A DNA stretch of 64,000 bases from Methylocystis heyeri. GTDB lineage: Bacteria; Pseudomonadota; Alphaproteobacteria; Rhizobiales; Beijerinckiaceae. Under the pieces are notes generated by a model. That model was given only the letters and a program-made list of their open reading frames with translations. It made no database searches and was not told the DNA's origin. Positions 8,058 through 62,575 of the stretch are shown here, one piece after another (position 1 is the first letter of the stretch; each line of letters starts with the position of its first letter). Location: positions 3,449,501-3,513,500 of the forward strand of contig NZ_CP046052.1 in the NCBI RefSeq assembly GCF_004802635.2, in the 5' to 3' direction. The translations under genes were made by a program, and so were the position numbers.

Positions 8058-8408
8058 CGGGAACCAATCCAACCAACTGAACGGGGATGCGAAGCTGCGC
8101 GCCGCAACTCCGGGCGCCCGGAGCGCCGTCGCAAAACCAGACATGCTTTTGCGACGTCGACCGGACGTTTCCGCCCGGCCTGAAAGCGCTCGGAGCGGAT
8201 ATGCGAAACTAGACCGCTTTTGCGACCAAAATGCGCTCCAAATCTACGACCGGCCGGAGCGATTTCTCATCGGCCGGACGCTTCCGCCCCGGCCCGCATT
8301 CGAAGCCGGTTGCGAAATCGGCGAATGTCGCCGCCTGTCGTCGGCGGATGAGGTCGCCGGTCCTTTGTCGCAGAGGAAACGGCGCCCGGGACCGGGGAAT
8401 TTTTGAAT
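8058..8408. repeat. gap filled by interspersed palindromic repeats (family C copy)
   Basis: No gene is visible here. At 8128-8155 there is a hairpin with arms GTCGCAAAA and TTTTGCGAC. From about 8190 to 8285 lies a family C repeat containing GCGACCAAAATGCGCTCC and a downstream GGAGCGATTTCTCATCGG. The first of these recurs exactly near 62466. Related copies lie at 43770-43883 and 55647-55744. The repeats separate waaA from the DUF4170 gene. Confidence 0.7.
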
Positions 8409-12534: not shown

Positions 12535-12616
12535 TGCTCTCACCTGCCTGCCCTCATATAAGTTGCTTCTCCCGCGAAGCGTCCCGCATGAAACCGCCCG
12601 CAGCCGGCCTCGCGCG

Positions 12617-12720
12617 CTAGAGTGTTTTCGAGCGAAGTGGATACCGGTTCGCGTGAAGAAAACACAATTAAACAAAGAGTTCTAGAGTCTTTCCGGTTCA
12701 ATCTGAACCGGAAAGACTCT
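12617..12720 (+). repeat. interspersed palindromic repeat, family A copy 1
   Basis: The element starts CTAGAGTGTTTTCGAGCG and ends in a perfect palindrome with 17-bp arms at 12684-12700 and 12704-12720 and a 3-nt loop (ATC). An inverted copy lies at 61857-61959; it shares AAACAAAGAGTTCT and GAGTCTTTCC exactly. A diverged copy lies at 30004-30108. The element type resembles intergenic repeats widespread in Rhizobiales genomes. Confidence 0.9.
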
Positions 12721-22896: not shown

Positions 22897-22902
22897 ATGC
22901 GT

Positions 22903-23343
22903 TCACCCCGCCGCCTTGCGACATTCCTCGGCGCAGGTCCGGCACGCCGCGCCGAGCGCCAGGCATTCGGCGATTTGCGGGAATTTCTCGCATTCCTTTT
23001 TGCACGCGAGGCAGAGATCGGCCGCGGTGCGGGCGAAGCCGACAGCAAAGGGCGCGCCGGTCCCGGCAAGGGCTTCGAGCGCGGCGCAGGCCGCGGCGAC
23101 CTCGCTCGCAAGGCTTGCGCAATCCGCAAGGCTCGGGTCCTTGGCCGAGAGCCGCTCGAAGGATTTGCGAAGACAATCCCGCGACGCCTCGAGGCATTTG
23201 GCGCTCGTCTCGGCGAGCGTCTTGTAGGGCTTTCGCGGGGCCGCGGGCGCCGCCGCCGCGGGGACCGCCGGCGCCTGCCCGGCGAGAGCGCTCGATCCAT
23301 AGGCGGCCGCGCCGATCCCTGCGATGAAGCTGCGCCGTTTCAT
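22903..23343 (-). CDS. Csp-type four-helix-bundle copper-storage protein, divergent copy
   Basis: 146 residues; TTTGGAAA precedes the ATG. A Tat-type signal (MKRRSFIAGIGAAAYGSSALAG) leads to a mature helical domain with 11 cysteines in the Csp pattern: AKCLEASRDC, LADC, AAAC, ADLCLACKKEC, IAECLALGAAC, RTCAEEC. Known Csp1 proteins bind many Cu(I) ions through Cys side chains inside a four-helix bundle. Compared with the paralogue at 58711-59142, this copy has CLRKSFERLSAKDPSLADC where the other has CLRHCFGMLSMNDTSMADC. It thus lacks one Cys, the His and all three Met at the presumed copper-entry end. Metal capacity or release may therefore differ. It converges on lpdA. Confidence 0.85.
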   Translation of the reverse strand: MKRRSFIAGIGAAAYGSSALAGQAPAVPAAAAPAAPRKPYKTLAETSAKCLEASRDCLRKSFERLSAKDPSLADCASLASEVAAACAALEALAGTGAPFAVGFARTAADLCLACKKECEKFPQIAECLALGAACRTCAEECRKAAG

Positions 23344-41489: not shown

Positions 41490-41620
41490 TGATCACGGTA
41501 ATACGAAATCCGCTGGATTTCGTATTCCTTCGCCGCAAAAACCGCTGTCGACCAGTGATTTCTACGGCGGTGGTTACGCGTATCGCAAAGCGATCTCGCG
41601 GAAGTCATATAAAGACGCAA
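41490..41620 (+). repeat. interspersed repeat, family B copy 1
   Basis: It contains a perfect hairpin at 41500-41526 (AATACGAAATCC / GGATTTCGTATT, loop GCT), then TTCGCCGCAAAAA and AAGCGATCTCGCGGAAG. The same blocks occur in the reverse orientation at 57765-57905. Confidence 0.8.
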
Positions 41621-43769: not shown

Positions 43770-43883
43770 TCACGCGATTTCCGCTCGAACGAGTTCGTTC
43801 GAGCGATCAGAAAACGCGTAAAATCAAAAGCTGGAGCGAATTCCTATCGAAAAAGTCTGTCAACTTTTTCGGAAATTCGCTCA
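43770..43883 (-). repeat. interspersed palindromic repeat, family C copy between shc and the HTH gene
   Basis: On the minus strand it reads TGAGCGAATTTCCGAAAAAGT, then CTTTTTCGATAGGAATTCGCTCCAGCT, TTGATTTTACGCG and CGATCGCTC-like ends. This parallels the copy in imuB (55647-55744) block by block. Its first three bases (TGA) are the stop codon of the HTH gene. Confidence 0.85.
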
Positions 43884-44108
43884 AGGTCGCACCACGATTT
43901 CGACGTCCTGTCCGAGCGGCGCCAGAAAGCGCAGCAGGCGCTCCACCGAAAACTGCCGGAAGTCGCCATGCAGCAATTTCGAGACATCCGGCTGCGTCAC
44001 CCCGAAAAATCCAGCGGCCTCGATCTGGCGCAGGCCGCGTTCCCGCATGAGAACGGCGATCCGCCGCACCGGCTCGGCCTTTAAGAGGTTGTCGGTCTCC
44101 TGGACCAT
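43881..44108 (-). CDS. orphan XRE-type helix-turn-helix protein (HigA/COG5606-like)
   Basis: 75 residues. VRRIAVLMRERGLRQIEAAGFFGVTQPDVSKLLHGDFRQFSVERLLRFLAPLGQDVEIVVRP is a typical single-domain Xre HTH, as in antitoxins paired with HigB/Gp49-like toxins. No toxin gene is adjacent. The protein is shorter than usual at the N-terminus, and its stop codon (TGA) is provided by the edge of a palindromic repeat, so the original C-terminus may be lost. It lies inside the hopanoid operon between hpnE and shc, where a regulatory role or a relic are both possible. Confidence 0.75.
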   Translation of the reverse strand: MVQETDNLLKAEPVRRIAVLMRERGLRQIEAAGFFGVTQPDVSKLLHGDFRQFSVERLLRFLAPLGQDVEIVVRP

Positions 44109-55158: not shown

Positions 55159-56880
55159 TCAAAACAGCCCGTGCACGAACCAGGGGGCGCAGGCGCATTC
55201 CTCGCCGAGCAGGCCTTCTCGATAAATCCAGAAGCGCCGGCCTTCGCGGTCGACGACGCTGAAATAATCGCGGGTGAAGGCGTTTTTCGGCGCGCGCCAC
55301 CAGGGCGGCGCAATGCGCTCCGGCCCCTCGAAGGCGACGGTCTCGTGCAGGGCCCGCCGCCAGCGGAAGCGCAAGGGCGGTCCGTCGGGCGCCAGGGCCA
55401 TCGCCTCGATGGGTTCGGGTCGTTCGAACAATCTTGCGGGACGCGAGGGCGTCGGCGCGAAACCTTCCCTCGCAGCCGCGGCATGGGAGAGATCCGGCGC
55501 AACGGAGGGGGAAGGCGCGGGATAGGCCGCCGGGATCGCGGCGATGGCGAATTCGGGCAAATGGGCCTGCTGCGGATAAAGGCGCAGCACCCGGCGCAAT
55601 CCCAGCCGGGCTCCGAGGCGGTCGACGATATCGGCGAGGTCGGGCGCTAGAGCGCATTCCGCAAAAGTTGACTGGCTTTTGCGATAAGAATGCGCTCCAG
55701 CTATTTGATTCTGATGCGATTTCTTATCGCCCGAACGATCATAGGGCGTCCCTTTGGACGCCCATACAGGACGGGCTATGTCGAGCGCTCCGGGAGCTGC
55801 GGATTCATCCTCCCGCAAGCCGAGCGGGTTCTGCTCGTCGTCCATCCGCTCGACCGCATCGGCGCAAAGGCGCAGCACATCGAAGCCGAAGCCTGCGTCC
55901 AGCCCGTCTTCCTCGCGGAGCCGCGCGAGACGTTCGCGCAGGAGCGCGAATATGCGCGCGGGATCGCGCAGGGGCCGGCTGGTCCCCGTCCTCACCCGCT
56001 TCACGGCGCCGTCGACGCGATAAAACACCGCCTCCAGCTCCCGCGCCCCGACGCCCTCGCGCTCCAGCAAGGGCCGCAATTCGTCCGCGAGGCGCCGCAG
56101 AGTCGCCTCTATGTCCGCCAATTGAGTCAATCCATCGGGAAAACGCCGTTCAGCCATGAAAGCCGGAGCCTCGAAACGCGGCGTGATGGGATCGCGGATG
56201 CGGCAGGTCAGCGCGTCGAGGCTCGTCAGCGCCCGTTCCCCGAAACGCGCCGCCAGCGGCGCGCGCGGGCGGGCGAGAAGATCGCCGATGCGGCGCAGGC
56301 CGGCTCTAGCCATGGCCGCGAGCACGCCTTCGGCGAGACCGAGGGCGGCGATCGGCAGTTCCGCCGCCGCGGCGTCTATGTCCTCCTGGGCGGCCTCTGC
56401 CGGAACAATGTTCACATCGGAAAAGCGCGCCAGAGCCCGCGCCAGAGCCGGTCCCGGCGCCAAAGCCGTCCGGGCGCAAAATCCCTGGGCGGCGAGACGG
56501 CGCCCGATCTCTTCGAGCAGGCTGGCTTCGCCGCCGAAAAGCTGCGCCGCCCCGGTTACGTCGAGCATCACGCCGTCGGGAGCGTCGAGCGCGGCCAGGG
56601 GCGTGAAGCGGCGATGCCAGTCGGCGACGGCCTCCAGCATGGCGGCGTCGGATTCAGGATCGTTCTCCTCCAGCGCAAGAGCGGGATAAAGCGCGCGGGC
56701 GTCGGCGACCGCCATGCCGGGGAAAACCTTCCGCCTTTGCGCGGCGGCGTTGACGGCGACGATGCGTTCGGCGCCCTTGACCTTGCGCCACAGCGCGAAA
56801 GGCCGTTCAGCCGCGTCGCCGCCCCGGCGCAAAATCCGGTCGGTCGGCAGCCTCGGCAGGAACACGCTCAGGAAACGCAT
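55159..56880 (-). CDS. imuB: ImuB, Y-family polymerase-like mutagenesis protein, with in-frame repeat insertion
   Basis: 573 residues from the ATG at 56880 (MRFLSVFLPRLPTDRILR). ImuB is the catalytically inactive Y-family hub that links DnaE2, ImuA and the beta clamp in SOS mutagenesis. As in other ImuB proteins the first Asp motif of true polymerases is absent (FLSVFLPRLPTD), while the Y-family fold remains (VAVNAAAQRRKVFPGMAVADARALYP, GVMLDVTGAAQLFGG, ALAPGPALARALARF). About residues 379-412 (from TPYDRSGDKKSHQNQIAG to STFAECAL) are encoded by a palindromic repeat also found between genes elsewhere in this window. The frame stays open through it. It overlaps imuA by 74 bp. No dnaE2 follows. 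Confidence 0.9.
   Translation of the reverse strand: MRFLSVFLPRLPTDRILRRGGDAAERPFALWRKVKGAERIVAVNAAAQRRKVFPGMAVADARALYPALALEENDPESDAAMLEAVADWHRRFTPLAALDAPDGVMLDVTGAAQLFGGEASLLEEIGRRLAAQGFCARTALAPGPALARALARFSDVNIVPAEAAQEDIDAAAAELPIAALGLAEGVLAAMARAGLRRIGDLLARPRAPLAARFGERALTSLDALTCRIRDPITPRFEAPAFMAERRFPDGLTQLADIEATLRRLADELRPLLEREGVGARELEAVFYRVDGAVKRVRTGTSRPLRDPARIFALLRERLARLREEDGLDAGFGFDVLRLCADAVERMDDEQNPLGLREDESAAPGALDIARPVWASKGTPYDRSGDKKSHQNQIAGAHSYRKSQSTFAECALAPDLADIVDRLGARLGLRRVLRLYPQQAHLPEFAIAAIPAAYPAPSPSVAPDLSHAAAAREGFAPTPSRPARLFERPEPIEAMALAPDGPPLRFRWRRALHETVAFEGPERIAPPWWRAPKNAFTRDYFSVVDREGRRFWIYREGLLGEECACAPWFVHGLF
55647..55744 (-). repeat. family C palindromic repeat inside the imuB coding sequence
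   Basis: The plus strand reads CTAGAGCGCATTCCGCAAAA, GTTGACTGGCTTTTGCGATAA, GAATGCGCTCCAGCT, TTGATTCTGATGCG and TTTCTTATCGCCCGAACGA. The same blocks occur at 43770-43883, and parts occur at 8190-8285 and 62430-62575, all outside genes. The palindromic part (GAGCGCATTCCGCAAAA / TTTTGCGATAAGAATGCGCTC) is intact. It is translated as part of ImuB on the minus strand without a stop. Confidence 0.88.
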
Positions 56881-57764: not shown

Positions 57765-57905
57765 TCTCTGCCGGCTCGTTCGGTCATACGGCTTCCGCGA
57801 GATCGCTTCGCGATCCGCAGAAGCGACCGCCGCAAAAATCGCCGATCGGCATCGCTTTTTGCGGCGAACGAATACGAAATGCCGCTCCAGTCGAGCGGAT
57901 TTCGC
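57765..57905 (-). repeat. interspersed repeat, family B copy 2
   Basis: In reverse orientation it repeats the blocks of 41490-41620: GAAATCCGCT, TTTCGTATTC, TTCGCCGCAAAAA, and AAGCGATCTCGCGGAAG. It fills the gap between imuA and the GST gene. Confidence 0.8.
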
Positions 57906-58710: not shown

Positions 58711-59142
58711 ATGGAACGCCGTGAATTCATGGCCGCGCTCGGCGCGGTCGCCGCCGCCGCTTCGGTTTCTTCCGCCATGGCCGAAGAGGGCAAGCACGTC
58801 CATAACCATCCGCCCAAATACAAGGGCCTGTCCGAAGCCTCCGGCAAATGCGTCGCCGAAGGCGACAACTGCCTGCGTCATTGCTTCGGCATGCTGTCGA
58901 TGAACGACACGAGCATGGCCGATTGCACCAAGATCACCTACGACACGATCGCCGCCTGCGGCGCGCTGCAAACCCTCGCCTCGGTGAATTCCAGCTACAC
59001 GCCCGCTTTCGCCAAGGTCGTCGCGCAGCTCTGCGTCGACTGCAAGAAAGAGTGCGACAAATTCCCGCAATACAGCGAATGCGTGGCCATGGCCGCGGCC
59101 TGCAAGGCCTGCGCCGAAGAGTGCCAGAAGGTCGCGGCGTAA
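58711..59142 (+). CDS. csp1: Csp1-type copper-storage protein
   Basis: 143 residues; TTGGGAGGCCTTTCA precedes the ATG. A Tat-type signal ([24 protein letters not shown]) precedes a His-rich start (HVHNHPPK) and a four-helix bundle with 12 cysteines: SGKC, NCLRHC, ADC, AAC, QLCVDCKKEC, SEC, AACKAC, EEC. The sequence CLRHCFGMLSMNDTSMADC keeps the His and three Met near the open end that, in Methylosinus trichosporium Csp1, help copper enter the bundle. The protein is expected to hold many Cu(I) ions outside the cytoplasm, to supply copper for particulate methane monooxygenase. A divergent paralogue lies at 22903-23343. Confidence 0.93.
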   Translation: MERREFMAALGAVAAAASVSSAMAEEGKHVHNHPPKYKGLSEASGKCVAEGDNCLRHCFGMLSMNDTSMADCTKITYDTIAACGALQTLASVNSSYTPAFAKVVAQLCVDCKKECDKFPQYSECVAMAAACKACAEECQKVAA

Positions 59143-61856: not shown

Positions 61857-61959
61857 GAGTCTTTCCGGTTCAGATCGAACTGGAAAGACTCCAGAACTCT
61901 TTGTTTAGTCGTGTTTTCATCACGCGAACCGGCATCCGCTTCGCTCGAAGACGCTTTAG
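61857..61959 (-). repeat. interspersed palindromic repeat, family A copy 2
   Basis: Near-perfect arms (GAGTCTTTCCGGTTC at 61857-61871 and GAACTGGAAAGACTC at 61877-61891) are followed by the family A tail. The element is an inverted copy of 12617-12720. It fills the whole convergent gap between argH and the PEBP gene. Its outer edge, CTAAAGCG on the minus strand, supplies the TAA stop of the PEBP gene. Confidence 0.9.
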
Positions 61960-62414
61960 CGCTGATAAACCCCCTCCAGCACAGCCTCCGCCAGAAGATG
62001 CTTCCCGGCCTCCTGCTCGACCTCCTTGCAAGTGGCGCCGGGACGGAGGACGAGTTCCGCCCGGTTCAGCGCAATGAGCCGGAAACGGTAACGATGCGGC
62101 CCGTGGCCGCGCGGGGGACAGGGACCGCCGTAGCCGACCTCGCCGAAATCATTGACGCCCTGCCTGAAGTCCTCGAAACCTTCAGCCCGGCCGGCGCCCT
62201 CCGCCAGCTCGCTGCGCCCCGAAGGAATGTCGAAAACCGCCCAATGGCGCCATGTGCCGGCGGGCGCGTCGGGGTCATCGCAAAGCAGAGCGAAGCTCTT
62301 GGCGTCCATCGGCGCGCAGGTCCACTGAAGCGCAGGCGAAAGATTTTCCCCGTCACAGGTGAATCTGCGCGGAACGACAGCCCCGTCATGGAAAGCGGTC
62401 GACGTCAGCATCAT
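61956..62414 (-). CDS. YbhB/YbcL-type PEBP (Raf kinase inhibitor-like) protein
   Basis: 152 residues from the ATG at 62414, with AAGGGACG upstream; the next codon is also ATG. Family motifs: FTCDGENLSPALQWTCAP, FALLCDDPDAPAGTWRHWAVFDIP (the DPDAP ligand-binding pocket) and CPPRGHGPHRYRFRLIALNRAELVL. Bacterial PEBP proteins have no settled function. The TAA stop codon is part of the adjacent palindromic repeat, so the terminal residues (EGVYQR) border repeat DNA. Confidence 0.9.
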   Translation of the reverse strand: MMLTSTAFHDGAVVPRRFTCDGENLSPALQWTCAPMDAKSFALLCDDPDAPAGTWRHWAVFDIPSGRSELAEGAGRAEGFEDFRQGVNDFGEVGYGGPCPPRGHGPHRYRFRLIALNRAELVLRPGATCKEVEQEAGKHLLAEAVLEGVYQR

Positions 62415-62429: not shown

Positions 62430-62575
62430 TCGGAAAAGCGCATTTTCGCGAAAGCCAATATGCTCTGCGACCAAAATGCGCTCCGCCATATGATCTGGAG
62501 CGATTTCGTTTCGGCCGAAGGCGGGGTCCGACCGATCATAAAAAAATATTACGGCGCAGTCCGCAAAAGTTGACG
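62430..62575. repeat. interspersed palindromic repeat, family C copy 4
   Basis: It contains GCGACCAAAATGCGCTCC and GGAGCGATTTCGTTTCGGCC, parallel to the copy at 8190-8285, and GCAAAAGTTGACGGG at its far end, as in the imuB copy. It lies between the PEBP gene and the sensor kinase gene. Confidence 0.75.

Follow-up and report, generated by a model that had tools for sequence, protein, structure and literature searches.

The imuB gene of Methylocystis heyeri carries, in frame, a copy of a palindromic repeat that is dispersed over the genome of this bacterium, so that short hairpin-forming repeat DNA in the Methylocystis group now codes for part of a predicted protein. We consider it very probable that this is a case of in-frame capture of a MITE-like repeat, tolerated in a disordered linker of the protein in the manner of the Rickettsia palindromic elements (RPE). 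Rickettsia provides the best-known palindromes of this in-frame kind, and isolated examples exist elsewhere among bacteria. The analysis started from a first-pass annotation of 64,000 nucleotides (the window; G000:C1:3449501-3513500, where G000 is the 4.73 Mb genome in three contigs); it confirms the observation made there and its interpretation, and the phenomenon proves to be broader than was stated.

The imuB gene (55159..56880, minus strand) codes for a protein of 573 residues (P0001) with the Pfam domains IMS (residues 26-149) and IMS_C (residues 242-324). Directly upstream on the same strand lies imuA (57736 down to 56807, minus strand), which is recognized by NCBIfam ImuA_translesion (E=1.7e-12) with 47.6 bits, below the 150-bit cut-off of that family, while a Pfam scan of its product gave no match. 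As had been claimed, the repeat in imuB is read on the minus strand without a stop: the frame runs uninterrupted from ATG to stop, repeat included, and the insert would be translated as part of ImuB. The size first given to the element (98 bp, 55647-55744, about 30 added residues) had to be revised upwards. The covariance-model match covers 55647-55756 (94.2 bits) and the likeness to another copy, L002, extends in the 5' direction to about 55786. Because the copy is a composite with a 5' extension, we place the repeat at approximately 55647-55786 (minus strand), where it codes for residues 366-411 (LDIARPVWASKGTPYDRSGDKKSHQNQIAGAHSYRKSQSTFAECAL); the predicted peptide includes SHQNQIAGAHSYR, and the net gain is 45 codons in comparison to the closest homologue, G188. 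Its 3' hairpin is found at 55650..55697 (minus strand; GAGCGCATTC..CGCAAAAG..CTTTTGCG..GAATGCGCTC), and a GGGCGTCC-AAAG-GGACGCCC hairpin at 55744..55763 (minus strand) replaces the loop of the 5' hairpin in the imuB sense.

The element was absent among the best 20 of 23 direct families and the 25 inverted pairs listed by a repeat finder for the window, and therefore BLAST and a covariance model were applied. With BLAST at least 45 rows were obtained in G000 (E<=0.01; best 40 of 118 candidates scored), including the imuB copy itself and one opposite-strand overlap; the covariance model yielded at least 138 matches (E<=0.01; best 150 of 2903 candidates scored). This abundance is far beyond chance and establishes a dispersed family, for which a scan of the window against Rfam at gathering scores matched no known entry. 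The model was built from 25 copies, with the imuB copy among them and those at 8190 and 62433 left out. All four places in the window that were said to share the repeat are matches of this model. The description of the other three as intergenic holds for 43770..43885 (plus strand, 112 bits) and for the diverged copy at 8190..8303 (minus strand, 30.9 bits, E=9e-4), neither of which overlaps a called gene, but not fully for the diverged copy at 62433..62539 (minus strand, 36.4 bits), which runs into the beginning of a minus-strand ORF that the gene caller scored weakly.

Complete copies in G000 measure about 117 bp and contain two hairpins, against 140 bp for the imuB composite. The consensus structure has 30 pairs, and over the whole family 12 of these show pair-keeping changes on both sides. 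Like a MITE, the element has terminal inverted repeats: of 46 full copies, 43 carry a sequence close to CTAGmGCGC, read inwards, at both termini when a loose criterion is applied, and 9 when the criterion is strict (the two ends are thus close to CTAGmGCGC and GCGCkCTAG). No target-site duplication could be demonstrated, and the CTAG-like palindromic ends would mask one. Among 30 aligned copies, a composite 5' loop module of the kind seen in imuB is shared by the imuB copy, L002, L005 and L010, and L006 carries a different one. Two of the four composite copies are in frame within genes (imuB and a SCO1-like gene) and two are called intergenic.

After removal of three opposite-strand overlaps, 135 of the 138 matches were retained for counting gene context: 122 are intergenic, 11 lie over gene ends and 2 inside genes (one of these being a weak partial match). 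These counts come from a home-made and noisy gene caller, which missed the SCO1 case and failed to place inside genes two of the seven in-frame cases of a second genome (G154, see below). Long open frames over L105, L109, L113, L079, L086, L128, L132, L136, L145, L149, L154, L076 and L176 were not counted as in-gene; judged by reading, several of them have the repeat ahead of the probable start codon or look antisense, and the 'spanning' call for L128 was set aside as a 42-nt partial match (30.4 bits). In L136, whose frame we take to be MutY-like, and in L076 the start may be upstream of the repeat, which makes these two candidate in-gene copies.

The window contains further repeated sequence. 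An inverted pair at 12614-12719 and 61857-61962 (106 nt, 90% complementary, with the hairpin GAGTCTTTCCGGTTC..GAACCGGAAAGACTC) represents a further repeat family, and a second inverted pair at 41512-41610 and 57786-57885 (82-88% complementary) has one member upstream of imuA. A Cys-rich protein is encoded at 58711-59142, with a related stretch on the other strand at 22899-23037; it presumably resembles the copper-storage proteins of methanotrophs.

The closest ImuB found, that of G188, is 83% identical and its insertion site is empty: it reads DESSHPALDAPDLAD where G000 has DES, the repeat-encoded residues and APDLAD. The same residues are thus not carried by this repeat-free homologue, and alignment with related proteins, the check proposed in the first-pass annotation, gives a gap over the repeat-encoded residues. 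In a first alignment 28 of 29 other ImuBs are without an insert, the exception (L040) having one that derives from a palindrome of its own genome. A genus alignment, 15 rows of which (L206-L220) belong to a divergent type of ImuB with identity near 40%, shows inserts only in L195 and L040 among 30 others.

The insertion point had been described as a flexible linker, and an AlphaFold model of ImuB (based on a 68-sequence alignment) agrees: the only segments of at least three residues with pLDDT<50 are 350-411, which covers the repeat residues and is predicted to be disordered, and 459-475, which corresponds to a second linker (linker 2). The first linker (linker 1) has a median length of 23 residues over 117 distinct ImuBs (136 loci minus 2 that are not full length and 17 near-duplicates; a separate motif filter was failed by 37 of the 136) and is not unusually long in most of them, against 75 residues in G000.

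A search of the genome for further in-frame copies, as had been suggested, revealed a second one in a SCO1/SenC-like gene (L084:1952-2788 = G000:C1:709058-709894; Pfam SCO1/SenC, 42.5 bits). Here a sister repeat, 91% identical to the imuB copy and in the same frame, lies inside the signal peptide, the N-terminus being composed of MTRRGKFAGGALAPLV, the repeat and AAVALFAPAALA. The ATG overlaps an upstream TGA, and the start is likewise overlapping in the 7 relatives checked. In 14 genus relatives that were read the repeat is absent from the SCO1 N-terminus (L191 was not usable for this reading). Four relatives (L179, L183, L187 and L188) aligned from query residues 22-25, over the repeat-encoded residues; inspection of their reading frames over the SCO1 N-terminus showed no repeat peptide.

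More cases are found in G154, a genome of the same genus with a resident palindrome of its own. In 37 fetched regions 52 copies were located, of which 45 are intergenic, 2 overlapping and 5 inside genes according to the caller; spanning frames together with Pfam give seven in-frame proteins, ImuB included. The repeat is internal in ImuB, a glycosyltransferase, an alpha/beta hydrolase and a histidine kinase, and resides in the N-terminal regions of FecR-like, RND adaptor and DUF1254 proteins, three cases where the start may lie inside the repeat. Besides ImuB, the comparison with relatives covered the kinase and the hydrolase: the repeat-encoded residues are absent in all 7 relatives fetched and aligned for the kinase and in all 11 for the hydrolase. 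The kinase alignment places six residues within the gap in 6 of the 7 relatives, and the G000 orthologue has a single clean gap over the repeat residues. Two further frames were left out of the count (L319, for which Pfam and NCBIfam scans gave no match, and L331). In L312, L325 and L329 of G154 an in-frame repeat stands near the N-terminus, before a hydrophobic stretch resembling the core of a signal peptide; together with the SCO1 case, these suggest that insertions are tolerated in signal peptides too, as a second kind of site.

The in-frame copies of G000 and G154 share a single frame, +1 when counting starts at the 3' end, both in imuB and the SCO1-like gene and in all seven cases of G154. 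Of the 52 copies in G154, 43 have this frame open (37 of the 38 of equal length) and no other frame is open in more than 6; in G000 it is open in 26 of 46 copies and one minus frame in 28 of 46. According to these open-frame counts, the shared frame is therefore mainly a consequence of which frame is stop-free. A simulation for G000, which covered two length classes (28 of the 46 copies) and ignored pairing constraints, gave no excess of open frames (10/18 against 11.7 expected and 3/10 against 1.9 expected). For G154, in a simulation likewise disregarding pairing constraints, the excess is small: 37 of 38 copies are open against 33.4 expected (8 of 500 simulations as high), and outside genes 32 of 33 against 29.2 (33 of 500 as high).

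ImuB linkers were found to hold repeats in other genomes as well. Linker 1 of the G154 protein (L195) contains a palindrome different from the G000 element, although layout and 3' end are alike by eye; this insert has 46 other rows in G154, 41 of them full-length at 90-97% identity. In G136 (L040, Methylovirgula) the same linker holds a copy of that genome's own palindrome (40 other rows, best 84%), and linker 2 contains a further palindrome (19 rows including itself). Linker 2 of the G105 protein harbours a near-perfect palindrome (L035:1252-1344) that is read in frame and whose stem measures about 26 bp; its genome gave at least 80 rows, corresponding to 40 places matched on both strands (best 40 of 122 candidates scored). 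Linker 2 of G061, with one other match only in its genome, was not counted. Linker hairpins are also present in L049, L051, L058 and L197, some of which look like common rhizobial repeats. Over the 117 ImuBs, hairpin windows with z<-4 are confined to the two linkers: 10 such windows, from 4 genes, occur among 2,198 linker windows and none among 12,315 core windows. The contrast is one of the extreme tail, with 12 linker windows from 4 genes against 8 core windows from 7 genes at z<-3.5 and 23 against 28 at z<-3.

The presence of dispersed palindromes in ImuB linkers of four genomes (G000, G154, G136 and G105) raises the question whether the insert is adaptive or regulatory, with an mRNA hairpin or the peptide tuning the ImuB level or mutasome contacts and hence repeated hits. 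The strong hairpin of the imuB copy (-40.5 kcal/mol for a 102-nt piece) and the G154 frame being open somewhat more often than simulated count for such a role. Nonetheless, we regard it as unlikely: palindromes and peptides differ between the genomes, two distinct linkers are involved, sister lineages do without an insert and, for the element of G000, open frames are no more frequent than simulated.

Since the inserts resemble the other copies in their own genomes and the near relatives are empty, we take them to be independent events, judging from the sequences compared. A single ancestral insertion, inherited by G000, G154 and G136 and lost elsewhere, would account for the shared linker and orientation and for the 3' ends of the inserts lying in a common frame, but is highly improbable. 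Each insert matches the repeats of its own genome, and the 90-97% identity in G154 exceeds what an ancestral copy should have kept when the ImuBs of G154 and G136 are 65% and 55% identical to that of G000; moreover, linker 1 is empty both in G188, which is related to G000, and in L041, which is related to G136.

Comparison of imuB between G000 and G188 gives a dN/dS of 0.21 overall, the part of the gene that precedes the insert having 0.26 and the part that follows it 0.14. Polarising the changes with L198 results in 21 nonsynonymous and 34 synonymous changes on the G000 branch, and 29 and 35 on the G188 branch. Judged by these ratios, the coding flanks of the insert are under purifying selection. 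The insert itself would be neutral. A decaying ImuB, with this large lineage-specific insertion in a stress gene as a step to a pseudogene, is next to negligible as an explanation given the intact frame, the low ratio after the insert, the absence of a surplus of replacement changes on the G000 branch and the conserved C-terminal end WF.HGLF, which the insert-bearing protein retains.

Ogata 2000, Ogata 2002 and Osteras 1995 are cited in the literature on palindromic repeats, and RIME of Sinorhizobium is a multi-copy palindromic repeat from the order Rhizobiales. As was stated in the first-pass annotation, in-frame palindromes are known from Rickettsia, and the literature adds Wolbachia, enterobacteria, Neisseria, Yersinia and Coxiella, including MITE insertions (PMC10969869, PMC2229807, PMC3767692, PMC5896051); the mechanism itself is therefore not new. 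As reported in PMC3767692 for RPE-4, -6 and -7, the RPE groups that lie near each other in orthologues may differ from one Rickettsia to another, which is attributed there to hotspots or common origin. A guanylate kinase with an RPE insert is described as active with a changed substrate affinity (PMC2229807), and a YPAL-type repeat as part of a signal peptide (PMC2229807 and PMC5896051). Bru-RS of Brucella (118 bp) is classed as intergenic (PMC2267715) and Br-REP1 and Br-REP2 of Bradyrhizobium are placed in intergenic regions (PMC5082802). Our literature search, thin on subscription papers, returned no Methylocystis case, ImuB-linker case or Rhizobiales coding palindrome.

The closest parallel is with the coding palindromes of Rickettsia and Wolbachia, likewise dispersed hairpins of 100-150 bp that are in frame in unrelated genes. 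The G000 element resembles the RPE in size (about 117 bp, 140 bp as composite), hairpins and copy number (at least 138 model matches), in hitting several unrelated genes that are empty in relatives (imuB and the SCO1-like gene; kinase and hydrolase in G154), and in the use of one reading frame, +1, in imuB, the SCO1-like gene and the seven G154 cases. This likeness concerns layout and behaviour rather than an alignment of the sequences to RPE. The differences are the host (Methylocystis/Beijerinckiaceae, not Rickettsiales), the mostly intergenic location of the copies and the sites used, which are linkers of a mutagenesis protein and signal peptides. ERIC, the 107-bp Correia element, YPAL and QMITE of Coxiella are also small mobile repeats that fuse with host ORFs, and occur in free-living bacteria too, though hosts and sequences differ from the Methylocystis repeats; repeated capture in orthologues by different families is seen here and not in the available portions of those accounts. 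RIME, Bru-RS and Br-REP, set against the G000 element by description only, are likewise multi-copy palindromes from the same order, but unlike the repeats here they are not described inside proteins in the partial texts available.

In-frame capture of a mobile repeat by imuB would then have proceeded as follows. The palindromic element, about 117 bp long and folded into two hairpins, would be MITE-like and non-autonomous, probably mobilized by a transposase acting in trans whose ends would match CTAGAGCGC. Its 140-bp composite version would have entered imuB after the split of the G000 lineage from G188, falling in the disordered linker that joins IMS_C to the C-terminal region and could tolerate an additional 45 residues. 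It was presumably kept because the frame was preserved, the frame contained no stop and the linker was disordered. Resident palindromes of other Beijerinckiaceae-type genomes would independently have undergone the same capture in ImuB linkers, and that of G154 in several further genes. Overall, the pattern is consistent with selfish spread in which copies are mostly purged from genes and retained where protein structure permits, like the RPE.

The resident repeats of three genomes appear to have filled the same disordered linker of an orthologous protein independently, and other palindromes a second ImuB linker; one genome has seven such proteins, and empty sites in the compared relatives accompany the filled ones. 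With this the rule that insertions are tolerated where the protein is disordered can be put to a direct test in genomes of ordinary size, and annotators are warned that linkers of ImuB, like signal peptides, can derive from repeats. More tentatively, and with considerable doubt on our side, it might be argued that these methanotrophic alphaproteobacteria have a protein-coding palindrome system of their own, whose persistently stop-free elements would rewrite signal peptides and disordered linkers again and again. The two linkers of ImuB would then be a preferred and possibly useful landing place, through which selfish DNA might change a protein of mutagenesis.
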